Origin: a virus | Strand: one strand, 5' to 3' | DNA: 22,167 bases | Virus record (IMG/VR): IMGVR_UViG_3300043540_000288 | Coordinates: 1-22,167 of that record | Part shown: piece after piece, positions 1-22,011 of the stretch | Layout: the number at the start of each line of letters is the position of its first letter | How positions within the stretch are numbered: the first letter of the stretch is position 1 | Position numbers and translations under genes: made by a program | Notes under the pieces: generated by a model | The model's input: the letters and a program-made list of their open reading frames with translations, nothing else | Databases searched by the model: none | Told to the model about the DNA's origin: nothing

Positions 1-694
1 ATGGTTTACTTGATAAGAATAAAGAATAATTAACATCTTGAATACCTGATAAATTACTCCCATCACCATAATATGTTGCATTCAAAATATTATTTCCACC
101 CATATTTAAATTTCCACTCATTGTATCGCCTGCTTTTAAGACATAATTACTTGCAGTTATATTATCTGGAATATCGCTATCTGTTAGTTGTAAATTAGCC
201 GATGGAACATATCCACCATCATTTAATTTAAGCAATTTATTAGCAGTATTAAAAGTATTGCCTTGTAAAGTAACGCTTGAAACGATTAAATTTAAAGGAT
301 TTGTCAAACTTCCATTTCCAAAAAATTGATTAGTATTAACTTCTATTGCTATTGAACCACTTCCAGCACTTGTCATTGAAGTCCCATCTTGAAATATAAT
401 TCCGTGCGAACCTGTTGTTGTTGAAAATATTAAATTTCCATTAGTTATCATTACATAATTGCTATAACTATTAACACAAAACAAAGGATTTAATATACAT
501 TGCTGATATTCTGGTGGGACATCCCCTTGTGATAGCATATCTGTATTATTTTGTAAGAACCTAAAATTCTGGTTAATACCGCTTATGTCTTTTTGGCTAT
601 CTTTAATATAATAAGGTGCTTTAATATCCAAAGCAAAAAGGTTAATCAATGTTAAAAGGTTAACTAATGTTAACTTTAATAATAATTTTTTCAT
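1..694 (-). CDS. Tail fibre-like protein, N-terminal part (cut by window edge)
   Basis: An open frame of 231 codons starts at ATG 694 and runs off the left edge, so the C-terminus is missing. The first ~22 residues (MKKLLLKLTLVNLLTLINLF) are a basic end followed by a long hydrophobic run, as in a Sec signal peptide. Further on are the phrases AGDTMSGNLNMGGNNI and YYGDGSNLSGI. Both are typical of phage tail-fibre and side-tail-fibre shafts, the latter often upstream of an S74-type chaperone domain, which would lie outside the window. The body is rich in N, G, S and T and predicted beta. The start overlaps the stop of the ATP-grasp gene in an ATGA junction, so translation is probably coupled. 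It is the last visible gene of the operon, fitting a receptor-binding protein. Confidence 0.75.
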   Translation of the reverse strand, partial: MKKLLLKLTLVNLLTLINLFALDIKAPYYIKDSQKDISGINQNFRFLQNNTDMLSQGDVPPEYQQCILNPLFCVNSYSNYVMITNGNLIFSTTTGSHGIIFQDGTSMTSAGSGSIAIEVNTNQFFGNGSLTNPLNLIVSSVTLQGNTFNTANKLLKLNDGGYVPSANLQLTDSDIPDNITASNYVLKAGDTMSGNLNMGGNNILNATYYGDGSNLSGIQDVNYSLFLSSKP

Positions 695-2031
695 AAATAT
701 TCTTTTAAAAACGAATAATCTTCTAATTGCTTTACTACTCTATCTGAAATATCGGTTCTATAATAACTTTTTGGAACATAAACTTTGGTTAAAACATTAT
801 TATATAAATTATATTTCGCATTTTCAATTGTCTTACCTTTGGCTGTTGCTACCAGAACATAAGCGCCAATGGTTAATATATCATCACCATTTTTTATAAC
901 TTCGCAAAAGTGTAAATTATCCTTTATCTCCTCATCGTATATAACAGGGATATATTTCATCCTTTCTTTTGCTTCATCTGTTGGAAATCCTTCGCCTAAT
1001 AAGACCGCTCCAATAGCCCATTCATCATAGAACTCAACTTCTAAATCCTCACCGCTGGCAATAGTGTATAAGAAATCAGTCCATCTTGTTTTATGAAGTT
1101 CTTGCTCTATATATATACTTGGATAACCACAGCGGGGAGTAAATTCCAATGGATATATATCACCATTTTTATCTATGATAGTATTTATATCCAAATTTCC
1201 CCTGAAATCCACTTCTTTTAGCCAATCTGTCATTTTATATAATGTTTCCCTGAATAGTTTATTATCCTTGCCAACTTTTTTAATTATGGTCCCCATTTCT
1301 CCCGTGCTAAATCCCTGTCCTTCTATATTATTTTTATTACCTGTAGCAAATTTCTTATGCTCAAAATTTATATCCAAAGCAAGCCAATCTTTGCCATTAA
1401 AAAATCCGCCACAAGCAATCTCGCAACAACCTAAAATTCTTTTCTCTAATTCTATCTTGTTTATTATTCCTATTTCTTTTCTTAATTTTAATCCTTCCAG
1501 ATAGATTATGGTATCCCTATTATCTTCCATTTCGCCAATTAAAGTTAAAGAACTATCTATTGGTTGCTTGCTTTCTGGCTTAATAACATAGGGTCCATTA
1601 TGATTATTTAAATAATCTATTGCTTTATCTATATTGTTAAACTCAACCATTTCAAATCTTTTGCCTATTCCAAAATGCTCAAATAACTTATGTCCAAATT
1701 TTCTGTCCTGCTCTAATTGCTCACCAAATTCATAACCATTAAATGTCTTGCCTAATATACTAATTCTATTCTTATAAGCAATGCCAAATACAGGTTTTTT
1801 GCTGTTTTTAGCAAGTCGTTTTTCTGTTTCTAAATCGTTAGTATCAAATATAATCAAATCAGCCCATTGAATAGATGGGATATAGTTATTGACTTTTTCA
1901 ATAGGAAACCCATCATATTGCTGGCGTTCTTCTTTTTCTTCAATATAGAACCTAATAAAATTACCTTCTTTATATAACCTATATGCTAAATCTAATGCAT
2001 CGCCTGACTTGGATATGAATAAGATTTTCAT
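691..2031 (-). CDS. PurD-like ATP-grasp carboxylate-amine ligase
   Basis: 446 residues, about the length of phosphoribosylamine-glycine ligase (PurD, ~430). Visible ATP-grasp elements: a Rossmann-like start (MKILFISKSG), a central HFGIGKRFE segment resembling the GIPT region, VIKP with a candidate ATP-contacting Lys151, GQGFSTGEMG at 238-247 matching PurD GPNTGGMG, and PLEFTPRCGYPS at 294-305 matching EFNxRFGDPE, with Glu296 as likely metal ligand. The usual Asn of EFN is Thr and the GDPE end is CGYPS, so the substrate is probably not the PurD one. Family knowledge: ATP-grasp enzymes join a carboxylate to an amine through an acyl-phosphate. No other purine gene is near. It sits between the large ejection-like protein and the tail fibre with ATGA overlaps on both sides, so it is made with virion proteins. 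Start ATG 2031 follows AAAGG. Substrate unknown; a tailoring enzyme for nucleotide, DNA, peptide or cell wall are all possible. Confidence 0.72.
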   Translation of the reverse strand: MKILFISKSGDALDLAYRLYKEGNFIRFYIEEKEERQQYDGFPIEKVNNYIPSIQWADLIIFDTNDLETEKRLAKNSKKPVFGIAYKNRISILGKTFNGYEFGEQLEQDRKFGHKLFEHFGIGKRFEMVEFNNIDKAIDYLNNHNGPYVIKPESKQPIDSSLTLIGEMEDNRDTIIYLEGLKLRKEIGIINKIELEKRILGCCEIACGGFFNGKDWLALDINFEHKKFATGNKNNIEGQGFSTGEMGTIIKKVGKDNKLFRETLYKMTDWLKEVDFRGNLDINTIIDKNGDIYPLEFTPRCGYPSIYIEQELHKTRWTDFLYTIASGEDLEVEFYDEWAIGAVLLGEGFPTDEAKERMKYIPVIYDEEIKDNLHFCEVIKNGDDILTIGAYVLVATAKGKTIENAKYNLYNNVLTKVYVPKSYYRTDISDRVVKQLEDYSFLKEYL

Positions 2032-5000
2032 TTTATTACCTTTCCTTTTCTTTTTAAATGATATTCTAAATATCTTTGCTGTGCTTCTTTAACTAATATT
2101 TTATATTGAATATCCGCTATTTTATCCATTTTCCCTGTTTGATATGGCAAATATAATGCTGAAGGCGGTCTTTTGGCTTTTAATCCCGGCAATTTTTCAT
2201 AATAAGGCAAATTCTCCGTAGCAAATGGCAAGTTCTTTTTCATTTCTTGAGAAAAAGTTGTTGATTTTCTATACACCGGGTCGTATATATTATTAACATA
2301 TCTAATAAGCCCTTCAAATGGTATCATTTGCCCTAATGGATATGCTAATGTATTACCAAAGTTTTCAGTTATACTAATTCTACCGCTAATAGCGTCCATA
2401 AAATCCTTTATTCCAGACAATGGAGTTTGCTCTGTTATTAACCTAATAGAAGATATAACTGCTTTAGAAATAACTCCTATTTCACTATCTGCTAATGCTT
2501 TTTTTTGCTCTTTCATATAATAATGTAATGCTTCTGGCATTATTAAGGATATAGCATAAGGTCCAAAATACCACATAGGTATCCAATGCCCATTTATTTC
2601 AACTGACATTGGTCTTCTGCCAGAATTATAAAATGCTTGTTTTTCTTTATCGTCTATAGGCGGTAGCCAGGTTACTTTACCTTCTGAAGCCAATTTAGCG
2701 CCTAATACAAACAATTGACTACCCATTAAAGCGTGTCCTATTTGCTCTTTACTATATTTACCGCCAATAAACCCTAATGGACTTCTTTCTATTCCTAATT
2801 TTGCTATATTTATAGGCGTAGTAACAAATGGAGCAAAGAAACTTGCCACAGGACCAATAACAGGTTTCCTTCTTAATTCTAATATCATTTTACCTAATTC
2901 GTCTAATGCTCTAACAAAAACTGGTTCATCTTTAATATCAGTTCCTAATTTTTCCCTAAAAAGCAATTTTTCAGCAGTTTTCTTTGCTAATTCTTCCGCT
3001 TTATCTTCTGCTATTCCTTTTCTCATTAGCCATGCTTTTTCGCCAGAAGCAATTAAAACACTAAAAAATTTATCCGATGCTTCCATAAGATTTGGAATTA
3101 CTCTAAAAGCAAATGGCATTTTAGCCCTCATCATTTCTGTTAAATAATCTTGTCCTGTTACTGGTCTATCAATTATTTTAGTTGAAATATTTCCACTTCT
3201 AAATGCTTCTAAAAACGCTGTTGACGCTTCTGGTATTGTTTTAGCGATGCTTTGATAATATTTTGGTATATCCATTAACTTAATATCTCTGGCTATTGGA
3301 TTAAAGAGATGTCTAAACATATCATATTCCCATTCTCCAATCATATCTAAAGGTTTTGTCATAATTGCTTGACCTAAATTTCCTGTTAAATTTCTTTCGT
3401 GCGTTAGTGGATTAGATAGCATATTATTATATCGGTATCCCTCAAACCAAGTTTTTAATTTTGCTCTTAAAGGAAGTTTATCATATACCGAATTTAATAA
3501 TTCCAATGTCGCTTTTGTCTTTTCTTCACCATCTGGCATTTTACCTATTTTCAGCATCCCTTTAGTTAGCATATCTTTTAATTCTGGTTCTAATTTAACT
3601 CCCATTTTATTAACTGTTTTATCTATACTATTTACAAATCCTCTGGGTGATAATCTATTCCATAAAGTAGCAAGTTGAATTTCTCTACCTGCTTTCCTAA
3701 ATTTATTATCAAATTTATCTATTAAATCCACTACTTTATCATAATCTCCAATTGCTTCATATTTCTTCATTAACCTAATTCCAACTGCCATATTAACTGG
3801 AGTTGATGGTTCTGCTAAAGCGTCTTCTATTGCTTTATCCGCTCCTTTTTCTTTTATTATTTTATCTGCTTGCTTTAATACTTCTTTATTAGGCAGTTGT
3901 GTATAATCCTGCGGCTTAATATCCTGAACTTTTTCTTTTAATCCTTCTGGCGTTACTTTTGATGTTTCAACGGTTTCAATAAACCCTCTTTTTCTCTTGC
4001 CTGGCATTTCCGTTGGTTTTTCGCCAATTCCTTCGGTAGGTGGCTCTTTTATCCCTTTATAAAATTCAAATCTATTTTTATTTGCTTCCCACCATTTTTG
4101 TGCTTTTTCTTCTGGCATTATATTTTTATCAAATCTTATTGCTTGAATAACTTCTTTGCCCGTTTCCTTATCTTTACCAACTATATAGGATACTCCTGGC
4201 GTAGTTGATTTTCGTCTAAAATATCCTTCTACTTTTTCTGGTGGATATAATCTAAATCTACCTTCATTTTTAGTTGAATTTGGGTCAAAAGAAAATGGTC
4301 GTTCTTCGCCAATACTCCATTGTGGCTCTATTGGTTTAACTTCTGGTTTAGCAACTTCTGGCTTGGCTTCTGGTTTTACTTCTGGCGGTGGGACAACTCC
4401 TTCTTTTGCCGATTTATTTATTGCTTCATTTATAACATTTTCTGCTTCTGTCTCTTTTATTGGTATTTTCTTTCGCTTAAACAAATCTTTTATATACATT
4501 TTTACACCGCTAATATCATCAAAACTTCTGACTATTTTATTGCTAATTGCCGCTTTTATAATAAAATCTGCCAAATTAAAACTATCTCTAACCCAATCTG
4601 GGCTTGATTTTGGGATAATGCTATCTACATTAAACAATTTATCTAATCCCATAAATACTGCTGTTTGCTTACCTGCTTCTGCCAAAAACGGGATTAACCT
4701 TCCTGCTGCTACCGCTTCTCCACCAGTATAAACAAAAGCACCCATCATTCCTGCCTGTAATGCTTTGGCTGGAATATCTTTACCTGCTGTTGGAATACCT
4801 CTTTCTTGTAAGTATCTGGTAGTATATTCATTAAAATTCTTTTCTACTTCCTCGTGGCTTACTCCATATTCTTTTGCTAAATTAGAAACTATTTGAAATC
4901 TGTTTATTTCTTGTGAAGATGGCTCATAAGCAGGTGGTTTTATTTCTGTTGCAGTAGCAGTTCCTCTTGTTGCCACTTCAAATTCTGGTCTTGTTGGCGG

Positions 5001-5198
5001 TGGCTGATAAGCGCCTATGGTTGGTTCTTTTGTTGGAATATTAGGTGTCGTTTGTAAAGTAATATCAGGTTTTTGAGGAATAATAGGTTTTGTTGGTTCT
5101 TGTAATTTTTGTTTTCTAATTAAAGATAGTTTTTCTTCAATTGTTAATTTTTGCTTTTTTTGTTCTCTTATTTGTGCTAATTTTTCTTCTATAGTCAT
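2028..5198 (-). CDS. Large putative ejection/internal virion protein
   Basis: 1056 residues. Order of parts: two tandem copies of TIEEKLxxIRxQK (residues 2-14 and 19-31); a Pro/Thr-rich linker; a Gly/Ala-rich hydrophobic stretch near 150-190 that could contact membrane; a second Pro-rich linker (EVKPEAKPEVAKPEVKP); a region ending in KWWEANKNRFEFY; a helical region with QLATLWNRLSPRGF and YNNMLSNPLTHERNLTGN; and a later hydrophobic segment (GPVASFFAPFVTTPINIAKL). The LSNPxTHxRNxxGN phrase recurs in very large phage polyvalent or internal virion proteins. It follows two smaller genes in the position of the P22 ejection proteins gp7, gp20 and gp16. Inferred role: carried in the particle and delivered with DNA across the envelope. 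No lytic transglycosylase signature was recognised. Start ATG 5198 overlaps the upstream stop (ATGA) and has only a weak Shine-Dalgarno, so coupling is likely. Confidence 0.6.
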   Translation of the reverse strand: MTIEEKLAQIREQKKQKLTIEEKLSLIRKQKLQEPTKPIIPQKPDITLQTTPNIPTKEPTIGAYQPPPTRPEFEVATRGTATATEIKPPAYEPSSQEINRFQIVSNLAKEYGVSHEEVEKNFNEYTTRYLQERGIPTAGKDIPAKALQAGMMGAFVYTGGEAVAAGRLIPFLAEAGKQTAVFMGLDKLFNVDSIIPKSSPDWVRDSFNLADFIIKAAISNKIVRSFDDISGVKMYIKDLFKRKKIPIKETEAENVINEAINKSAKEGVVPPPEVKPEAKPEVAKPEVKPIEPQWSIGEERPFSFDPNSTKNEGRFRLYPPEKVEGYFRRKSTTPGVSYIVGKDKETGKEVIQAIRFDKNIMPEEKAQKWWEANKNRFEFYKGIKEPPTEGIGEKPTEMPGKRKRGFIETVETSKVTPEGLKEKVQDIKPQDYTQLPNKEVLKQADKIIKEKGADKAIEDALAEPSTPVNMAVGIRLMKKYEAIGDYDKVVDLIDKFDNKFRKAGREIQLATLWNRLSPRGFVNSIDKTVNKMGVKLEPELKDMLTKGMLKIGKMPDGEEKTKATLELLNSVYDKLPLRAKLKTWFEGYRYNNMLSNPLTHERNLTGNLGQAIMTKPLDMIGEWEYDMFRHLFNPIARDIKLMDIPKYYQSIAKTIPEASTAFLEAFRSGNISTKIIDRPVTGQDYLTEMMRAKMPFAFRVIPNLMEASDKFFSVLIASGEKAWLMRKGIAEDKAEELAKKTAEKLLFREKLGTDIKDEPVFVRALDELGKMILELRRKPVIGPVASFFAPFVTTPINIAKLGIERSPLGFIGGKYSKEQIGHALMGSQLFVLGAKLASEGKVTWLPPIDDKEKQAFYNSGRRPMSVEINGHWIPMWYFGPYAISLIMPEALHYYMKEQKKALADSEIGVISKAVISSIRLITEQTPLSGIKDFMDAISGRISITENFGNTLAYPLGQMIPFEGLIRYVNNIYDPVYRKSTTFSQEMKKNLPFATENLPYYEKLPGLKAKRPPSALYLPYQTGKMDKIADIQYKILVKEAQQRYLEYHLKRKGKVIK

Positions 5199-6169
5199 TT
5201 TATTACTTCATATTTATCTAAAATTTCTTTTTCTGAAGTTCCCATTGCTTTTAATTGATTAAACTCGTCTTGAGTAATTTTTTCTTTTGTTTTCTTGGTA
5301 GTTTCTTCTTTTTTTGGTAAAATACTACTTTTTAATGATTTTAAAAAGTTTGAAATTTTAGTATAAATCTTTTCTTTATCTCCTTCGTTTCCCTTTTTAA
5401 TTGGTTCTAATATTTCAAACTTTAATTTAGAATTGCTTGCATTTATTTGTTTAGCATAGTTATTATAATTTTCAATTTGCTGATTGATATAATTAACATT
5501 TTCTTCATCATCAACATCTATTCCACTAACAATATTCTGAATATTTAATCCCATTTTCATAACATCATCTATTATTCCTGCTATTTCTTTTGGAACTTCG
5601 CCTGCTTTTTGCTGTGCCATTTGGCTTATTTTAGAATAATATTTATCTTTTATATCTAATCCTTTAACTTTAGTATATTCATCCACAGTCATCTGGGAAA
5701 CTCCCCATTTTTTTTGTTCTTCTGGAGATAATGTTATTAGCGTTGGAGTTGGTTTTGTCGCTTGATAATATACTTTCCCTAATTTTTCTATATCGGACGC
5801 AATATATTCTTTTCCCACTTCTAAAAATGGATATATTTTTTTAAGTTCTTCTGTTGCTGTAAATTTCTGTTCTGGCTCTTTTTTAGTTGCTAAACTTAAA
5901 AAATCAGAAATAGGTATACTTTTCCCTTTTAATGGCGATAATTTGGTCTTTAATTCATCGGGTAATGTTCCTAAAAATTCATCATTTATTGGTATAGTAT
6001 ATTTTTCCCACTCTTTCTGTTTTTGTTTCTTTTCTATCATCCCGCCAATACCTTGTGATAAACCTTGAATAGCGGACAATGCTCCTGATGTAATTCCGCC
6101 ATATTTAGTTCTTATCGCTTCCATCGCTATATCTTCAAACCTTCTCGGTCTTGGTATAAATTCTGGCAT
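5195..6169 (-). CDS. Putative internal virion/ejection protein
   Basis: 324 residues, not recognised as a named family. The N-terminus has a Gly/Ala/Ser-rich amphipathic stretch (GALSAIQGLSQGIGGM, about 27-43) followed by a basic KKQKQKEW segment; the middle is mixed and Lys/Glu-rich. The C-terminus ends in EFNQLKAMGTSEKEILDKY, a small helical phrase I associate with the tails of phage internal proteins. It lies between the 199-aa Ala/Gln-rich protein and the 1056-aa protein, matching the three-gene ejection cassette of P22-like phages, with ATGA overlap to the next gene. Start ATG 6169 is well supported by AAGGAGG seven bases upstream. The role is inferred mainly from position. Confidence 0.5.
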   Translation of the reverse strand: MPEFIPRPRRFEDIAMEAIRTKYGGITSGALSAIQGLSQGIGGMIEKKQKQKEWEKYTIPINDEFLGTLPDELKTKLSPLKGKSIPISDFLSLATKKEPEQKFTATEELKKIYPFLEVGKEYIASDIEKLGKVYYQATKPTPTLITLSPEEQKKWGVSQMTVDEYTKVKGLDIKDKYYSKISQMAQQKAGEVPKEIAGIIDDVMKMGLNIQNIVSGIDVDDEENVNYINQQIENYNNYAKQINASNSKLKFEILEPIKKGNEGDKEKIYTKISNFLKSLKSSILPKKEETTKKTKEKITQDEFNQLKAMGTSEKEILDKYEVIK

Positions 6170-6190: not shown

Positions 6191-6790
6191 TCATTTCCCT
6201 AATATACTCCCTACTCCACTTATTATTCCGCCGAATATATTCCCCCACATACTTGTCTTTGCAGCTGACTTCATTGCTTTTAATTGTTCTTTTAACATTC
6301 TCTCTTCTTCCTGCATTGCCAATTGCTGACCTAATGCTTGTGCTAAATTTAAATACATCTGTTGATTAGCCTGGACATCTACGCCCCACGCTTGCATTAA
6401 CGCTTGTGCCATTGTCTCTGCTTGCTTTTGCGCTAATGCTCCCCTTACCTGCGCTTCCTGTTGCAATGCTCCTAATCTTGCTCCAAGCATACCAGCGGCT
6501 TCTATATCGCTACCTCTTAATCCCCTTGCTCCTGCTTCACTTTGGGCTATTGCCGCCTGTTGTTCTCCTGTTTGTCTTATCGCTTCTAATTGCGGTTGAA
6601 TATATTGACCCTCTGTAGAAACCTGTTGCTGAATATAAGGCAGAATGCTTGACATTGTCTGCGAGGTGCTTTGCCTGATTAAATCTAATATATTACTCGT
6701 TGTTGGTGCAAGATTTGTCAACTTGCTATAATCAATATTCAATGTAGGTAAGTTTGGTAAACCGCTTGGGCTTCCTGTTCCATTGGGCAT
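6191..6790 (-). CDS. Ala/Gln-rich putative DNA ejection protein (P22 gp7-like in position)
   Basis: 199 residues, very rich in Ala and Gln in the middle (for example GARLGALQQEAQVRGALAQK), consistent with long helices. The N-terminus is Pro/Ser/Thr-rich and disordered-looking. The last ~18 residues (SMWGNIFGGIISGVGSILGK) form a Gly-rich hydrophobic tail ending in Lys, which could insert in membrane. This layout resembles small injected proteins such as P22 gp7 or T7 gp14, but I see no identity strong enough to name it. It is the first of three consecutive ejection-like genes. Start ATG 6790 has a strong AAAGGAGG site. Confidence 0.55.
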   Translation of the reverse strand: MPNGTGSPSGLPNLPTLNIDYSKLTNLAPTTSNILDLIRQSTSQTMSSILPYIQQQVSTEGQYIQPQLEAIRQTGEQQAAIAQSEAGARGLRGSDIEAAGMLGARLGALQQEAQVRGALAQKQAETMAQALMQAWGVDVQANQQMYLNLAQALGQQLAMQEEERMLKEQLKAMKSAAKTSMWGNIFGGIISGVGSILGK

Positions 6791-6800
6791 ATTTCCTCCT

Positions 6801-9734
6801 TTAATCCCATCCTATTTCACGATAAACTGCAAGAATATTATATAAATGTATTGGTCCCTGCTTTCCTTGATTATTGGCTATTTCAAATTTAATCCAATGA
6901 AAAGCAGTAGCAGTTGCTACAGATGGGAAAAATTTTGCTACAAAATAACCTTTTTCTTTTGCCTCACTTAATCCAACCGTTCCCATACTATAAGCAGTAG
7001 TTGAACCATCTATATAATATTTTACACTTAAATCAATATTTTGTCCACTTATTTCTTCTGATTTCAGGACTAAATAGACACGCTTCAATATCTTTTTAGA
7101 ATACGGATTGCCAAAATCATTATCATTGGTAATCAATTTATAATCAAACGAATTTCCATTATCGTCTAACCCTACATCTTGCTTGTAAATATAACCCGTA
7201 TCCTGACTATCTCCCGTATATAATTCCCTATTATAAATAACCGCAGAGTAGGCGTTGATATCGTCAAATAAAGTCCATTTATCATTACTATCAAGGACCA
7301 GAACGCTATCATTATGTGCCTCTGTAGCGGTATTTGTTGTATAGAATAGCCAATATCTATCCCTATAAACCGAACTTGCTACAGGTGGTCTTTGCTCGCC
7401 TTCGTTCCATTCCAAAGTTAAAGCATCTAATTTTATTGTTTCCGTTGTTGATGTTGGGGTAAATTCAATTTTAGTCCCCAAATATGGTGCAGTGTCAACT
7501 GCTATTTTAATATTTGGCGATTGCTCTGTCCAGGAAGCAGTTGACCTTGTTACCTGATTACAGGAATTGCCAGAAGTAACATAATATTTTAATGTGGCAT
7601 TGCCATTTAAATTATAAGTTGGTCTATAATTGCCCCAAGAAGTTACCCCTGTAGTTTCTATGCAATCAGGGATATAATATCCTGTTGAGGTCGCATTAAG
7701 CGTAACATCGTCTATTTGTGGCGTAACCGTGCTATAATTGGTATAAAAATTTGCTTTATACTGCCAATATTGTTTAGGCGCTACAATTCTTAAAGTATCC
7801 GAAGTTGCTGTCCAATCTGACCAGGTCCCATAAGGTGAACTTGCATATCTGACAAAATAGTCAATCTGCGTCTCTGCTGGAGTTGAATATGTAACATCAA
7901 AAGGACCGCCTACAGGTGTTGGAATACCTGTGTTAAAAACTTGAGAAGTAAATGTGCCTGAAAAATAATACATTGGTGTATAAATACTATCAAAAGTAAT
8001 ATAATCTTGAGGATATCCAGAAACAACACAATATAGTAAAATATAATTACTCTCATTATAAGTGGTATCAGTAACACTTTGTGTTATAGTCCCTAATGTT
8101 ATAGTAAATTTCCCATTCCTGTCTCGTTCAATATACCATAAATTACTATCCATATTATCTTTTGTTGTTTGAAAAGTTAATAATGTTGTTGGTGTTCTAC
8201 TCGCTACTTTTTTAAGTGATATAATATAAGTATTAAGTTCATACTGTTTTGATTGGATGTCTAATAAATATCCATCAGTATTAGCATATTGGTTTAAATA
8301 ATTTACCCCCTCTTGAAAAGAAACATCATTACCTTTTGATATAAAATATAACCTACTATAAGTCATAACATTATCTGCGTGTCTGTAATGAGTAAGTTTA
8401 AAAGACCACTTTCCCATTGTTAAAGTTGATGTGGAAGTATATAGATAACCACCATATACTCCCGTTTGATTAAGTTGAAAATTAACGGCATAATTAGAAA
8501 CTGACCAGGGATTATATGAACCACCATTAAGAATATTCCAAGTGGGATTATTCGTATAATTACCATCATCAAAGTTGTCTAATAAATTCATATTATAACT
8601 CAATATTAAACTTCCATCAATTATAGTAGTTGACACATTAACCAAAGTTCCATATCCAAAATCAACAGCCGTAGTATCTGTCTTTGACCAAGTAGAGGGG
8701 ACAACATTACCAGGGTCTATGGTAGTTGAAGTCCATTCGCCATTAGTCAATCCCGCTTCCCATTCCGACTGCGTGTCATAAGTTTTAGTCCTTTTATTGC
8801 CCGCAGATTTAATAATCTCATCAACATTTGGTCTAATAGGGTCAGAAACCCTTTCAATAGAAGTTCCAGACATTCTTTCTATTCCCCTTTTAGATAGCCA
8901 ATATAAAGCATTATTCTTTTCTTTTACGCTATTTTGGTCTATACATCCAATTTCATTGGATAATTTAACCAAACTGAAATTACGCCTATCATAACCATAT
9001 AAAGCATATAAATCATCTTCCCTGCCTATTAAATAAGCGCCTTGATAAGTTCCCATTAAGCAGGTTATTCTTTTACCATCATTAGTTCCAGATATATCTA
9101 TACTTGCCGGCGATGTTGAATATCCAGGTATTTCTAATGTCCAATCAGTTCCATTTCCTTCGCCAGATAATCTTATTCTTGATAACTCGCCAGATATATT
9201 GCCAACAATTAACCTATTAGCAAAAGTATCAATTAAAGTCGGTTTAGCATTTGAAGGTAAAGTAAATGTTCCTGTAGATGTTCCGTCCCAATAGAAATTA
9301 TTATCAACGCCATTAACACACCATAATTTGCCTAATGATTGAACGCATTGCATATCATTAGTAGCATTTAGCCCTGATATAATAGCAGTGCATTGCCCAT
9401 CGCCTTTTGAATAATAAAGTGTCTGGCTTGCTAAAAATACCATATATTTTTGATTATCGGTAGCGTTAAATGTCCACATCCCCCTTATTTTCTTGCCATC
9501 GCCACAAGGGGATGAATTATATTTAGAATACCCATTTCGTCTTAAAATAGAAGCATCTTCGTCAAATACTATATTCTTAATATCGGTAAGGCATTCAAGA
9601 TTTATTTTATTAGAAGCATATCTGGTAACCAAACCACATTTACCAAAATCAGGATATTGGAATACCTTTTCGTCTTTTGTAGGAGTTTGAGAAAAAACAT
9701 TTATCGCAAATAAAAATATTGGCAATAATTTCAT
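6801..9734 (-). CDS. Large beta-rich tail protein, nozzle/stopper-like, with signal peptide
   Basis: 977 residues. A signal peptide is likely: MKLLPIFLFAINVFS then QTPTKDE. Shortly after comes FDEDASILRRNGYSKYN, followed by strand-rich repeats around bound-looking phrases (YMVFLASQTLYYSKGDG, LWCVNGVDNNFYWDG). This opening (V/F-D-E-x-x-S-xx-RR-x-GY) is common in phage tail proteins with a beta-propeller, such as podovirus nozzle or stopper proteins. The middle holds lectin-like beta segments (residues about 380-590), then Trp/Tyr-rich sheets. Its start overlaps the stop side of the next gene leftwards only by spacing of ten bases, while its own start (ATG 9734) overlaps the adaptor stop in ATGA. 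It directly follows the adaptor gene, the usual place for a nozzle gene. Contains many Cys for a cytoplasmic phage protein, for instance near residues 33, 49 and 77. Confidence 0.6.
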   Translation of the reverse strand: MKLLPIFLFAINVFSQTPTKDEKVFQYPDFGKCGLVTRYASNKINLECLTDIKNIVFDEDASILRRNGYSKYNSSPCGDGKKIRGMWTFNATDNQKYMVFLASQTLYYSKGDGQCTAIISGLNATNDMQCVQSLGKLWCVNGVDNNFYWDGTSTGTFTLPSNAKPTLIDTFANRLIVGNISGELSRIRLSGEGNGTDWTLEIPGYSTSPASIDISGTNDGKRITCLMGTYQGAYLIGREDDLYALYGYDRRNFSLVKLSNEIGCIDQNSVKEKNNALYWLSKRGIERMSGTSIERVSDPIRPNVDEIIKSAGNKRTKTYDTQSEWEAGLTNGEWTSTTIDPGNVVPSTWSKTDTTAVDFGYGTLVNVSTTIIDGSLILSYNMNLLDNFDDGNYTNNPTWNILNGGSYNPWSVSNYAVNFQLNQTGVYGGYLYTSTSTLTMGKWSFKLTHYRHADNVMTYSRLYFISKGNDVSFQEGVNYLNQYANTDGYLLDIQSKQYELNTYIISLKKVASRTPTTLLTFQTTKDNMDSNLWYIERDRNGKFTITLGTITQSVTDTTYNESNYILLYCVVSGYPQDYITFDSIYTPMYYFSGTFTSQVFNTGIPTPVGGPFDVTYSTPAETQIDYFVRYASSPYGTWSDWTATSDTLRIVAPKQYWQYKANFYTNYSTVTPQIDDVTLNATSTGYYIPDCIETTGVTSWGNYRPTYNLNGNATLKYYVTSGNSCNQVTRSTASWTEQSPNIKIAVDTAPYLGTKIEFTPTSTTETIKLDALTLEWNEGEQRPPVASSVYRDRYWLFYTTNTATEAHNDSVLVLDSNDKWTLFDDINAYSAVIYNRELYTGDSQDTGYIYKQDVGLDDNGNSFDYKLITNDNDFGNPYSKKILKRVYLVLKSEEISGQNIDLSVKYYIDGSTTAYSMGTVGLSEAKEKGYFVAKFFPSVATATAFHWIKFEIANNQGKQGPIHLYNILAVYREIGWD

Positions 9735-10603: not shown

Positions 10604-11017
10604 TTAATCTTTACTATCGTATTGAATTTCGCCTACAATATAAACACTTCCAGCAATTCCATCCTGTAATCTGGCATATATAGGCGCTTCATTATAGTCC
10701 TCAATATAATATTTAACAAGTCCTAATTTCTGTCCATTACTTGAATTAGTGCAAGTAGTTCCTGAAGTTGTAGTCGTAGATAAACAAATAAAGCCAGGCA
10801 AAGCAGTAGAAGTGGTTTCTATTATAGAATATCGTCTTGTATCTTGAGTTGATAAAACAGCGGTCCAAGAAGTTGAGGCAACAGAAACACTAAAAGGAAC
10901 TCTTGTATTTCCATTATTTATATATGTCTTTGTAACCGAATAATCCTGTCTTGGTGCTGATTTAATAACGCCATATAAAGCAATTATGCCTATGAATATT
11001 ATTATTATTTTTCTCAT
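10604..11017 (-). CDS. Small beta-rich virion protein with signal peptide
   Basis: 137 residues. The N-terminus (MRKIIIIFIGIIALYGVIKS then APRQDYS) is basic then strongly hydrophobic, with an Ala-containing possible cleavage site. The rest is Thr/Ser/Tyr-rich and predicted beta, with two Cys (FICLST and GTTCTNSS). The family is not recognised. It lies between the capsid block and the adaptor, where many phages place head-fibre, decoration or connector-associated proteins. It has an AGAGGAT site before ATG 11017. Next to it is another small protein of similar size with the same kind of N-terminus, so the two may form a pair. Confidence 0.5.
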   Translation of the reverse strand: MRKIIIIFIGIIALYGVIKSAPRQDYSVTKTYINNGNTRVPFSVSVASTSWTAVLSTQDTRRYSIIETTSTALPGFICLSTTTTSGTTCTNSSNGQKLGLVKYYIEDYNEAPIYARLQDGIAGSVYIVGEIQYDSKD

Positions 11018-11028
11018 AAATTATCCTC

Positions 11029-11439
11029 TTATGAGCAAGCAGTTGTAGATGAAGTTATTGCTGAAAAATCACCAGCGTCTGTTCCTGTGGAGATGCAAAC
11101 AGGAACTGAACAATTGCTACAATAATAAATTTCACCGACAGATGCTGGAGTGATAGCAGCAATTTCCGTTTTTGTTTTTGAATAAAGTTTTATTGCCCCA
11201 GTCATTGACACATAGTCAGTATATACAGAAGCAACCTTATAAGTAGCATTTCCTATCTTATAAGTGCTTGCCGCTCCAGGTATAAAGTCGCCACTTGAAT
11301 TGACACGCCAGAAACTATATTTGCCTGACATATTATACCCCAAAGTCGCATAATCGCCCTTTTCAGCAACAACTTGATAGCCAAAATCCATTACAATTGC
11401 TAATATAGATATAACAATGGCTATTTTAATAAACTTCAT
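11029..11439 (-). CDS. Small fibre/decoration-like virion protein with signal peptide
   Basis: 136 residues. It starts with a hydrophobic stretch (MKFIKIAIVISILAIVMDFG) that could be a signal peptide or anchor. The body contains DYATLGYNMSGKYSFWRVNS, GDFIPGAASTYKIGNATYKV and, near the end, YYCSNCSVPVCIST. Such W-R-V-xx-x-G-x-F-x-P ... STYxxGN phrases occur in short phage fibre or decoration proteins. The clustered Cys near the C-terminus could form disulfides if the protein is exported, or bind metal. ATG 11439 follows GGAGGTTATT. It is placed between the capsid-side helical protein and a similar-sized exported protein. Confidence 0.55.
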   Translation of the reverse strand: MKFIKIAIVISILAIVMDFGYQVVAEKGDYATLGYNMSGKYSFWRVNSSGDFIPGAASTYKIGNATYKVASVYTDYVSMTGAIKLYSKTKTEIAAITPASVGEIYYCSNCSVPVCISTGTDAGDFSAITSSTTACS

Positions 11440-18511: not shown

Positions 18512-18817
18512 TTATTCTCCTATCGCCCATATATCATACTCTCGGACTATAACATATTCCTCGTCATCTATAATAACGCTTGGACATTTTCTCGTTACTG
18601 GGTCAAGATGGACTACATCTCCAACTTTAAATGGCGGGTCTATAACTTTATCTGACATATCAATAACTTTTGCTTTCCAGCATTTGCCTTCTGTTTTTTT
18701 CTTGCTATCTTCAATTACCGAAACAGGGACATATAATCCCTTTTTCTTTTCTGGTTCGGTAGCAAGAGGTAAGACCAACACTTCATCGTTTAGTAATTTT
18801 ATTTTGTCTTTTATCAT
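18512..18817 (-). CDS. GroES-like co-chaperonin
   Basis: 101 residues, the length of GroES (97). The alignable pattern: IKLLNDEVLVLPL (first strands), a flexible Lys-rich segment at 20-42 with GLYVP at 27-31 in the place of the GroES mobile-loop tripeptide, KVIDPPFKVGDVVHLDP at 57-73 (GroES 'VKVGDIVIF'), and the end IIDDEEYVIVREYDIWAIGE matching GroES 'IDNEEVLIMSESDILAIVE'. Family knowledge: phage GroES-like proteins such as T4 gp31 replace the host co-chaperonin so that GroEL can fold capsid protein. It lies between the large terminase and the portal, so it is likely expressed with virion genes. ATG 18817 has TAGGAGGAG. Alternative: another beta-barrel of the same fold, but the C-terminal match is strong. 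Confidence 0.8.
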   Translation of the reverse strand: MIKDKIKLLNDEVLVLPLATEPEKKKGLYVPVSVIEDSKKKTEGKCWKAKVIDMSDKVIDPPFKVGDVVHLDPVTRKCPSVIIDDEEYVIVREYDIWAIGE

Positions 18818-18825
18818 TTCTCCTC

Positions 18826-20451
18826 CTATACAACTCCGTATGGTTTTGATTTATAATTTGGATATGATATATTTTCGCTTTTATTTACAGCATTAAATAT
18901 TTTCAGGTATGCTTTTTTGGTATTATTGGGGTCATATCCAAATTGCTTAACAAGATAGCAAGCAATAGCACAAGCGATTACTCTATCTGAAAAGCAACCT
19001 TCCTGAACATCTATGACATCATCATTTAAAACAATTGACCGCATTTCATAAATCAAGTCCTTTGATTTTATAGTAATCTCATAATTTTTAAGCATTGAAT
19101 TTAGATTATAGAACATATCTCTTTTAGTTCGCCTATTTGTTTCCCAGCCATATAATTGTTCTTGTTTTTTTTGCGAATGTGGTCCTTTTTCCCTGATATA
19201 GATATTGCTATAGCCTGTCTTAATAATATTATCTATTGTTACCTGACCGGGACCAGGCCAGGCTTCTGGAGCGAGCAAAGCATTATTATAATATCTGGCA
19301 AGGTTGACAAGTATTTCAGCAAAATCATCTGGCTGGATATGTCCGTGATATTCTGCTACTTGTGACATTGTATTAACATCAAGAACAAAGGCAGTTGAAT
19401 AGGCGCCATCTTTTAATCCCTCTGCAATATCAGAACCGATGATATAGATATGTTTAATATCAGGTGTCCCCCATATTTTTAATCCACTGCCGGACTTTGG
19501 GACAAAATAGACGCCTTTCTCATCGCCATTATCTTTAAGAAAGCCAATAAGTTTTGGCGGGGTGGTAATTTCCTCGTGTTTAGAAAGTATTATCCAATCA
19601 AAGAAAAGTTTTCCAGATGAAATAAACGCGGTAACAGATGAACTTGGATATTCTTGTTCGAAAAGTTCTGGATTAGACATATCTTGAATTTTCGCTCTAC
19701 GCCAGGCAAGTTGTTCAAAATCAAGATTATATTTTTCTATTAGTTCTTTTTCCTCTTTTGTTAAATCAGGCAAATTGGTAATTCCTTTAACTCTATATGT
19801 CTCATCAAAGAACCAGGGAATAAATATTGGCTTATATTTTGACTGACCTAATTCTGCTCTTTGCCACAAATGATAAAAGAAGTTTATTCCATTTGCAGTG
19901 GTCTCAATAGTTCCTTCCGCATCTTCCATACACGCTTCTTCAATAGCGGTTAAAATATCAATAGATTTATAGAATGAAAATTCGCTCAAGTGAAAATCGG
20001 TCACGTCGGACCCACGCCCAAAAGTTAGCGACCCAGCAGTTCCAACTCTAAATGTTGAATTGGTTGCTGGAAATTCTATATATCCATCTGCTTTATTTAT
20101 ATGATGTGGTATTTTAACTACGCAAGATGTTAATATTGGAATTACTCTTTTTAAGAACATTTCCTTTGTAGCATCATCATTTTGACAGAGCAGAACGCAT
20201 CTTTGATTGCTTTTAAACAGACATTTCCATAATGCTCTTGCTATTTTATAAGTTGAAATACCGCCCTTTCTACTTTTCAAGACGATATTAAATTTAGAAT
20301 AATTTTGCGAAAAATATTTCTGAATTTTATTTAACTTAAACGGAATAACCTTATTTGTTGATTTATCTATAACTGAAAGGGTTGTTTCAATAAAAAAGTC
20401 AGGCTTATCTATTAGTTGGGCTAATATTTCTTTGTCCGTCATCTTTGGCAT
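18826..20451 (-). CDS. terL: Terminase large subunit (packaging ATPase/nuclease)
   Basis: 541 residues from ATG 20451. The frame extends to ATG 20472 (548 aa), but AGGAGA at 20458-20463 lies seven bases before ATG 20451, so that start is preferred. Numbering from 20472: Walker A-like SRKGGIST at 67-74; Walker B VTDFHLSEF with Asp159 and Glu164; coupling motif ETTANG at 190-195; nuclease (RNase H-like) acidic residues Asp348 in IGSDIAEG, Glu403 in APEAWPGPGQ and Asp496 in FSDRVIA. All key elements are present. It cuts and translocates DNA into the capsid through the portal, with the small terminase encoded upstream. It overlaps the SpoVG-like gene by 47 bases. Confidence 0.93.
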   Translation of the reverse strand: MPKMTDKEILAQLIDKPDFFIETTLSVIDKSTNKVIPFKLNKIQKYFSQNYSKFNIVLKSRKGGISTYKIARALWKCLFKSNQRCVLLCQNDDATKEMFLKRVIPILTSCVVKIPHHINKADGYIEFPATNSTFRVGTAGSLTFGRGSDVTDFHLSEFSFYKSIDILTAIEEACMEDAEGTIETTANGINFFYHLWQRAELGQSKYKPIFIPWFFDETYRVKGITNLPDLTKEEKELIEKYNLDFEQLAWRRAKIQDMSNPELFEQEYPSSSVTAFISSGKLFFDWIILSKHEEITTPPKLIGFLKDNGDEKGVYFVPKSGSGLKIWGTPDIKHIYIIGSDIAEGLKDGAYSTAFVLDVNTMSQVAEYHGHIQPDDFAEILVNLARYYNNALLAPEAWPGPGQVTIDNIIKTGYSNIYIREKGPHSQKKQEQLYGWETNRRTKRDMFYNLNSMLKNYEITIKSKDLIYEMRSIVLNDDVIDVQEGCFSDRVIACAIACYLVKQFGYDPNNTKKAYLKIFNAVNKSENISYPNYKSKPYGVV

Positions 20452-20770
20452 TGGCATTCTCCTGATTGGCATTATCTTCTGTTTTAAATAGTTCCGCTTT
20501 TAGCATATGCATAAAAGTCCCCAATATTACTTCATTGATTTGTTTTCTTGTTTGTTGATTTATAGGATGGCAAATATCCAGAAACTCGCCATTTAATTTT
20601 GACTTATAACTTGGCATACAGACTCTAAAACTTTTATTCTTTCCTTCAACTATTCTAACTTTATGGACGGCAAAACAATTATTGATAACAAACGAACAAT
20701 AAGCCATAACTGGCTTTTCTTCCTTAACCATTTTAATTTGGACATTACCGATTGTTATTCCCATTGTCAT
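20405..20770 (-). CDS. SpoVG-like nucleic-acid-binding regulator
   Basis: 121 residues. Residues 5-85 follow SpoVG closely: ITIGNVQIKMV, CFAVHKVRIVEGKNKSF (33-48; SpoVG FVVHDIRVIDGNNGLF), VCMPSYK (50-56), GEFLDICHPINQQTRKQI (61-78; SpoVG GEFRDITHPINSSTRGKI). The last ~35 residues are a hydrophilic Asn/Asp/Glu tail. Family knowledge: SpoVG binds DNA and RNA and regulates genes in Firmicutes, Spirochaetes and others. Here it overlaps both the small terminase and the large terminase genes, so all three are made together. It could adjust packaging timing or bind phage DNA or RNA. ATG 20770 follows GAGGACGATA; a second ATG at 20764 is also possible. Confidence 0.8.
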   Translation of the reverse strand: MTMGITIGNVQIKMVKEEKPVMAYCSFVINNCFAVHKVRIVEGKNKSFRVCMPSYKSKLNGEFLDICHPINQQTRKQINEVILGTFMHMLKAELFKTEDNANQENANAKDDGQRNISPTNR

Positions 20771-21209
20771 TATCGTCCTCCAATTCTAATCTTTGTCTAA
20801 TCGCTTGAATGTTAATATTTAAATCAGACGTTTTATCCTCTAATTGCGCTATCTTATCAAGAAAGACCTTCTGCGCTGAAGTATCTCCAGCCTCCGCATT
20901 GGCTATCAATGACTTAACGACATTTGGCGTCTTTCTTTTCGCCCATTCTACAGTATCCTTAACTATTTGCTCCGATTTTATCTGCGTATCCCAATATTGC
21001 AGTCGTTGCGGAGTTATTCCGAACTTCCTTGCAAATTCGGACTTTGTCCTTAACTTCATCAACTCTATTTGCTCTTCGGTAAAAAATCTCAAATCATCTC
21101 TATCTATTTTTTGCGGAAGTGAAAGCCAGATTTCATATTTTCTTTTAATATCTTTTATCTCTTCTGGCAAGTGTGGATTCTGTTGCATTCCTTTACATCT
21201 GGGTTGCAT
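20745..21209 (-). CDS. terS: Terminase small subunit
   Basis: 154 residues from ATG 21209. The middle contains a helix-turn-helix, KSEFARKFGITPQRLQYWDT, typical of DNA-recognition domains of small terminases. The following helices (VKDTVEWAKRKTPNVVKSLI; DTSAQKVFLDKIAQ) fit the oligomerisation part, and the Asn/Asp-rich end is disordered. A longer frame begins at TTG 21245, but that lies inside the promoter, so it is unlikely. ATG 21209 is seven bases after the -10 box, implying a leaderless or near-leaderless mRNA; ATG 21188, preceded immediately by AAAGGA, is the alternative start. Recognises the packaging site and hands DNA to TerL. Overlaps the SpoVG-like gene by 26 bases. Confidence 0.82.
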   Translation of the reverse strand: MQPRCKGMQQNPHLPEEIKDIKRKYEIWLSLPQKIDRDDLRFFTEEQIELMKLRTKSEFARKFGITPQRLQYWDTQIKSEQIVKDTVEWAKRKTPNVVKSLIANAEAGDTSAQKVFLDKIAQLEDKTSDLNINIQAIRQRLELEDDNDNGNNNR

Positions 21210-21216
21210 ATTTAAA

Positions 21217-21245
21217 ATTTTACATAAATTTAATTGGCTTGTCAA
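21217..21245 (-). promoter_or_regulatory. Sigma70-type promoter of the packaging operon
   Basis: On the minus strand: TTGACA (21245-21240), 17 bases, TAAAAT (21222-21217). Eleven of twelve bases match the consensus. ATG 21209 follows the -10 box by seven bases, so the start is expected at or next to the A of the ATG. The -35 box overlaps that of the plus-strand promoter. Confidence 0.8.
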
Positions 21246-21267
21246 GTCTTATTTTTTTTAGTATAAT
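21239..21267 (+). promoter_or_regulatory. Divergent sigma70-type promoter of the plus-strand gene
   Basis: TTGTCA (21239-21244), 17 bases, TATAAT (21262-21267), then six bases (ATTTTT) to ATG 21274. Eleven of twelve bases match the consensus. The -35 box lies in CTTGTCAAG (21238-21246), a 9-bp palindrome centred on T21242 that also holds the opposing -35. Confidence 0.82.
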
Positions 21268-21273
21268 ATTTTT

Positions 21274-22011
21274 ATGCAAGCAATTAACCCAGATGAAGTA
21301 ATTGATACCAGGTCGGAAATATTTGATAGAAAAATATTAAAGATAATTGATACCGGCGAAAGTATTCTATGTATTTCAATAGCAAAAAACAAAAAGAAAT
21401 ATAATACCTCTTCCTTTAAAACAACTTCGCCAATTTTTGATATTAGAAGAATTAACTTCAGGAAAAAATATAATCATTTTGTATTAGATACATTATTTGG
21501 AATTTCATTTTCACTTCAGGATGAGGCAACCCAATTTGCCAACATATTGGCTCAAATACCACAAAACGATGAAATTAAACTTTTGGATTATGCCAAATTA
21601 TTCCTTGAGCCCGCCTATAATTCCGACCCTAAAATACTTGATATGCTCGGTTCTAATAACCAAAAAGATATAGAAATTGCTAAAAATTCACTTAACTATT
21701 CAGAAGTTATAATCGCTAAAATTGATGTAAATTACTTCGTTAAATATTTCGTTACCATCAGATTAGCCGATAATGAAAAACCAGCAATTGTCTTGCATAA
21801 ATGCCCGGTAACACCTTCTTATTACGGATTTATAACTTCTTCTGTCAGAATACCATATCCATATCTGCCAAATTTCATTACCGACTTATATCAAACAATC
21901 CCAGAATATAAAATCCAATTTAGCGAATTTTTAAAAGCAATAGAACAATATAAACAAAGAAATAAGAAAATACCTCACCTTCCTTTTAAAATAAAGAACC
22001 TTTTAAAATAA
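21274..22011 (+). CDS. Unidentified protein, possibly with PC4-like fold
   Basis: 245 residues, the only gene on the plus strand, not confidently recognised. The first half has ILCISIAKNKKKYN (31-44), FDIRRINFRKKY (55-66) and FGISFSLQDEATQFANILAQ (75-94). The spacing strand-strand-DIR-strand-GISxSxxE-helix recalls PC4-type transcription coactivators that bind single-stranded DNA. The second half (145-210) has strands and a helix in a similar order (VKYFVTIRLADNEKPAIVLH; YYGFITSSVRI; LPNFITDLYQTI), so it could be a duplication, weaker. The C-terminus is basic (KKIPHLPFKIKNLLK). ATG 21274 lies six bases after a perfect TATAAT, so the mRNA probably has no leader and no Shine-Dalgarno. Diverging from the late genes, it could be an early or regulatory protein. 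Confidence 0.4.
   Translation: MQAINPDEVIDTRSEIFDRKILKIIDTGESILCISIAKNKKKYNTSSFKTTSPIFDIRRINFRKKYNHFVLDTLFGISFSLQDEATQFANILAQIPQNDEIKLLDYAKLFLEPAYNSDPKILDMLGSNNQKDIEIAKNSLNYSEVIIAKIDVNYFVKYFVTIRLADNEKPAIVLHKCPVTPSYYGFITSSVRIPYPYLPNFITDLYQTIPEYKIQFSEFLKAIEQYKQRNKKIPHLPFKIKNLLK

Follow-up and report, generated by a model that had tools for sequence, protein, structure and literature searches.

A family of PurD-derived ATP-grasp ligases in the late operons of phages and in archaea and bacteria

In phosphoribosylamine-glycine ligase (PurD), ATP is bound by Lys103, Lys143, Glu185, Glu192 and Lys214, glycine by Asp212, Arg287 and Glu292, and magnesium by Glu100 and Lys214 (PMC8880213). PurD-like proteins that depart from this scheme have been described in cells. 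Indeed, in a 2011 curation study two haloarchaeal PurD-like proteins were not accepted as GAR synthetases, one ground being a missing Asp (PMC3261824). In viruses, purD of phages has been listed as an auxiliary metabolic gene (PMC11097641) and purD has been counted among the proteins shared by vent viruses (PMC12043954). Modification roles have also been proposed for other phage ATP-grasp ligases, such as the R2K clade and the ATP-grasp/amidoligase cluster of Pa11virus.

Here we describe a ligase encoded in a 22,167-nucleotide stretch of viral DNA (IMG/VR record IMGVR_UViG_3300043540_000288), hereafter the window, the name standing for the whole stretch that was analysed. Compared with PurD (TIGR00877; structures 2yw2, 2xcl and 1gso), it has the same full-length fold, domain order, GARS_A and GARS_C homology, ATP and metal residues and Arg287, but Asp212, Glu292, Asn285, Asp290 of the PROSITE PS00184 motif and the GGREHA loop are all replaced, the enzyme stands on a separate branch supported at 100/100, and its gene lies in a late phage operon. 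With the haloarchaeal "extra PurD-like" proteins Hlac_1553 and rrnAC0307, likened here by their published description (PMC3261824), it shares the lack of the conserved Asp of R[LF]GDPE and a divergent N-terminal loop, although those proteins are cellular and not from phages; both likely belong to the same ligase family. A family member on a Halarchaeum plasmid, with an EFTPRFGYP motif and 54% identity to another member from archaea, fits the altered motif and the similarity of this haloarchaeal group. In contrast to the R2K clade and the Pa11virus cluster, the family is of PurD type, and ATP-grasp matches in a viral fold library were weak (query TM at most 0.43). The phage ligase neighbourhoods showed no evident amidoligase or glutamine amidotransferase partner, and no description of this family was found in the open-access library searched.

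Gene, fold and active site

The ligase gene (691-2031, minus strand) is an intact open reading frame of 446 aa with an ATG start, predicted to encode a PurD-derived ATP-grasp ligase. The curated families that match it are of PurD type only: the TIGR00877 purD model, a curated equivalog model with a cut-off of 288 bits, scores 80 bits (E 1.5e-22), and the Pfam domains GARS_A and GARS_C are each found near their cut-offs (GARS_C at E 9.6e-8). Among solved structures, PurD 2yw2 matches its sequence at E 4.7e-12. The same model scores about 75-124 bits across the family, always below 288, matching 23 of 23 members in one set of relatives (75 bits in one example) and full-length archaeal members at about 93-124 bits. 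PHROGs assigned no family to the window protein and gave a single weak match among 46 relatives. In an AlphaFold model built on 45 aligned relatives (pLDDT 88.9, pTM 0.88), the window protein shows the PurD fold complete, with all four domains and so also the C domain, and all top matches in the fold comparison are PurD, with Z of 30-32 over about 390 residues and an rmsd of 3.3-4.3, against Z of at most 24 for carboxylases, the next class. Curated models, GARS domains and fold agree with the first-pass annotation, which had read the gene as an ATP-grasp enzyme of PurD length.

In order to compare active sites, 143 family members and 12 PurDs were aligned and tabulated with 2yw2 numbering. Glu283 and Asn285 were included as presumed metal ligands of PurD, following general knowledge of ATP-grasp enzymes. 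Glu100, Lys143, Glu192, Lys214, Glu283 and Arg287 are retained in all 143 members; the ATP ligand position Lys143 is Lys151 in the window (1579-1581, minus strand). Lys103 is Arg throughout (143/143), and Glu185 has become Gln in all but a few members, the window clade being among those that keep Glu. Substrate positions follow a different course. The glycine ligand Asp212 is Glu in 143/143 (Glu224 in the window; 1360-1362, minus strand), Asn285 is Thr in 143/143, Asp290 is Trp, Tyr or Phe in 141/143, and the glycine ligand Glu292 is lost in nearly all, being Ser in the window and mostly Leu, Thr or Ala elsewhere. Hence the window motif EFTPRCGYPS (residues 296-305, set against 2yw2; 1117-1146, minus strand) keeps the metal residue Glu296 and the carboxylate ligand Arg300 but has Thr298 for Asn, Tyr303 for Asp290 and Ser305 for Glu292. 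The PS00184 motif R[LF]GDPEx[EQIM] occurs in none of the 143 members compared with 11 of 12 PurDs. At the N-terminus, the GGREHA-type loop reads SKSGDALDLA in the window and is missing from the other family rows inspected. Furthermore, two acidic residues are new: an Asp at window position 281 (96% of the family) where PurD has Tyr, and a Glu at position 245 (100%) where PurD has Gly.

Since the ATP residues are retained while the substrate positions are replaced, the ATP chemistry would be largely kept and both substrate sites altered, as far as can be judged from sequence. The departure from the PurD motif EFNxRFGDPE that the first-pass annotation had pointed out is real, being fixed in 143 relatives, and its suggestion of a new substrate is borne out as likely by replacements that run throughout the family. 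Catalytic residues of the ATP site are kept, with one exception in the window copy: the glycine-rich phosphate loop with its Lys, present in about 95% of the family, is divergent there, the Gly and Lys that PurD and most of the family conserve both being Ser (positions 154 and 160), and this particular copy could be weakened.

Relatives in phages and cells

A search of IMG/VR with the window protein alone found no close relative. With tblastn against GenBank phages one good relative was found, the complete circular genome ct2os315 (MW202796), in which the PurD-like gene (20001-21332; an intact ORF of 443 aa, our locus L002) sits at the end of the structural operon and is absent from the GenBank annotation. 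Searches with the ct2os315 protein and with alignments yielded 49, 201 and 26 IMG/VR loci in overlapping sets, and the family is present in over 200 IMG/VR contigs. Among GTDB genomes 24 loci were found, part of them in phage-like regions (Paraburkholderia, Rhodanobacteraceae) and the others chromosomal (DPANN archaea, Omnitrophota, Steroidobacteraceae). In one archaeal phylum, about 10% of the 279 genomes sampled have a member. The PurD-derived ligase is a large, unrecognised family found in phages, prophages, DPANN and haloarchaea and some bacteria. In one contig (L199), a second gene near the family member (3753-4880) appears by eye to be ATP-grasp/PurD-like.

As PurD controls we used true PurD genes from the phage collection (L003-L007); several of their records resemble host DNA. 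In both trees PurD is split from the ligase family at 100/100, and a grouping of the window protein with PurD is absent. Its nearest relatives are only 36-37% identical. In the larger tree it groups with those of two phage contigs, L191 and L192, at 100/99, and the three share a common gene order; this trio joins other phages with moderate support (94/78). A cellular clade, which itself contains four phage members, lies close to the trio. The first tree had placed the window protein with this cellular clade, a sampling effect: adding L191 and L192 moved it to them and, more loosely, to the phages.

Stand-alone archaeal and bacterial members keep the altered active-site residues of the phage type. 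Two sets of cellular genomes with a family member, all drafts, were searched for purine genes. Canonical PurD above the cut-off is also present in 6 of 13 genomes in one set and in 8 of 26 in the other, 14 genomes in all. In 13 of the 26, canonical PurD above the cut-off and PurM matches are both absent, and one of these 13 has a PurD fragment. Given that members often occur beside canonical PurD or without PurD and PurM, purine synthesis is not their explanation. Cellular neighbours differ between lineages, and no conserved neighbour that would name a pathway was found; over 26 archaeal loci a single partner recurred weakly, at 5 loci, and by eye it resembles an acetyltransferase gene. The FAD monooxygenase and methyltransferase genes beside the Steroidobacteraceae members were considered as partners and set aside, since they are not common to the archaeal members, although Roseomonas has similar genes nearby.

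A fixed late position in phages

The structural genes of the window lie on the same strand as the ligase gene, and PHROGs recognises among them terminase, portal, major capsid and internal virion protein. Upstream of the ligase gene lies a gene for an ejection-type internal virion protein of 1056 aa at the position of T7 gp16 (2028-5198, minus strand; PHROG 6651 "internal virion protein", E 1.3e-12), and downstream a fibre-like gene (2-694, minus strand) that runs off the window. Each shares 4 nt with the ligase gene, the sequence being ATGA at the two junctions, as had been noted at first reading. The first-pass placement of the gene between an ejection-like gene and a tail fibre is confirmed on the ejection side by the PHROG match, whereas the fibre label rests on position and on homologues in L191, L192, L311 and L312, the product having no Pfam match. 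Further along the operon, candidate internal virion proteins occupy the positions of T7 gp15 (5195-6169, minus strand; by position and syntenic genes in L191 and L192) and T7 gp14 (6191-6790, minus strand; homologues in L191, L311 and L312), followed by a tail stabilisation protein at the gp12 position (6801-9734, minus strand; 37-40% identical to proteins of L191 and L192).

Several other features of these operons were observed. The tail stabilisation and fibre-like proteins of the window, L191, L192, L311 and L312 begin with apparent Sec signal peptides, with a hydrophobic stretch and small residues ahead of the cleavage point, which is unusual, tail proteins being assembled in the cytoplasm; such N-termini are absent from the portal, capsid and ejection proteins and also from the L185 homologue. 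Two small genes of the structural run (10604-11017 and 11029-11439, minus strand) have strongly hydrophobic, signal-like starts. A GroES-like (Cpn10) gene recognised by Pfam lies between portal and terminase (18512-18817, minus strand), and ct2os315 also has one beside its portal gene. Residues 333-376 of the ejection-type protein match the plant BRX Pfam model (29 bits against a cut-off of 24.5), which probably reflects a short common motif and not a plant domain. Near the ligase gene, some of the phages have a recurring small Lys-rich protein that bears a KTVSxNIxTEM-type motif (L189, 6795-7034; L022, 3375-3521; and others).

The position of the gene is widely conserved. Over 78 non-redundant phage loci its typical place is behind a large ejection-type gene and ahead of a fibre-type one, often with lysis genes thereafter; in T7-like phages this site is flanked by the gp16-like and the gp17-like gene. 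In 67 of 73 phage loci the gene upstream has the same orientation and a product of at least 400 aa, and the overlap with it is exactly 4 nt in 57 loci, with starts chosen mechanically. In L187 and L189 the gene adjoins a portal gene instead, named by eye from position and sequence. The structural-operon setting noted at first reading therefore holds, the gene lying in the virion (late) operon of nearly every phage relative. Starting from the tail protein, the ligase gene was found in 20 of 27 loci with enough sequence, some contigs overlapping, and was absent from seven; in all six inspected of these seven, the ejection-type gene is immediately followed by the fibre-type gene, and two of the six, L311 and L312, are related to the window phage. 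Given these empty sites with the same flanks, the ligase gene is, by its gene order and overlaps, an accessory single-gene cassette, late and with predicted translational coupling, at a fixed late position. No purine gene was found among the window ORFs scanned, in line with the first reading, and none is listed in the annotation of ct2os315 (43.8 kb), which also misses the PurD-like gene itself.

Substrate and role

The explanation that we favour, with a probability of about one half, is that the family consists of PurD-descended carboxylate-amine ligases that no longer make glycinamide ribonucleotide, act on a substrate shared with cells and are carried by phages as a late accessory cassette. 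Judging from the retained residues, a carboxylic acid would most likely still be phosphorylated with ATP and its acyl group passed to an amine. The acid pocket would have been rebuilt through the changes from Asp to Glu, from Asp to an aromatic residue and from Asn to Thr together with the loss of Glu, and the amine pocket through loss of the phosphate loop of the N domain. With both pockets rebuilt, neither glycine nor phosphoribosylamine would be expected as a substrate. The substrate would most likely be a small metabolite or conserved cell constituent common to cells and not a virion protein or DNA, since archaea and bacteria that have no virions keep the same altered residues.

The late locus could mean a virion-specific role, although the evidence lowers this. 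The main rival is a late ligase from which an ejection, fibre or head protein would receive an amino acid or another acyl group during assembly. The gene stays in the virion operon even where the gene order differs, at the gp16/gp17-like site as well as beside the portal gene in L187 and L189, and it is translationally coupled to the ejection gene. However, close relatives without the gene keep the same flanking genes, the identity of the neighbour differs among phage groups, and chromosomal members keep the altered residues in the absence of virions, so that we consider this rival unlikely. Slightly less probable still is a late modifier of the host envelope or another host target, acting for instance in superinfection block or adaptation of lysis. 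The accessory presence of the gene and its place just ahead of a lysozyme/holin/spanin cluster in many loci are consistent with this, as are other phage ATP-grasp ligases proposed to modify host proteins (PMC7824862; PMC4431377), but no conserved envelope-linked partner gene was seen and a PADLOC search of the ligase gave no match.

Modifications that carry amino groups are known in phage DNA generally, and a ligase for hypermodification of nucleotides or virion DNA would follow that precedent; we regard it as improbable, given that no DNA-modification genes lie nearby, the operon is a late and not a replication one, and the cellular members stand alone. Late expression had led the first-pass annotation to propose DNA, a virion protein or the host surface as the target, a proposal that is not favoured here: nothing points to DNA, and the empty sites and the virion-less members weaken the rest. 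Finally, a working GAR synthetase serving as an auxiliary purine gene, the reading that an automatic purD label invites, is very unlikely from the sequence evidence, for although fold and all four domains are those of PurD and phage genes annotated as PurD do appear in lists of auxiliary metabolic genes (PMC11097641), the 143 relatives have lost the glycine ligands and the PS00184 motif, those inspected also lack the GGREHA loop, members coexist with canonical PurD or occur without PurM, and similar haloarchaeal "extra PurD" proteins were rejected partly for the same missing Asp (PMC3261824).

The family is a defined enzyme at a fixed late locus, common to phages and small-genome archaea. More tentatively, phages, DPANN archaea, haloarchaea and some bacteria may share an undescribed amide-forming reaction carried out by a PurD descendant, which phages would express late and whose product would be a metabolite or a modification; many purD genes of viral metagenomes may then belong to it. 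As at least one large phage family that resembles purD is very unlikely to make glycinamide ribonucleotide, viral purD calls need to be checked for the motif E-x-T-x-R-x-G-x-P.
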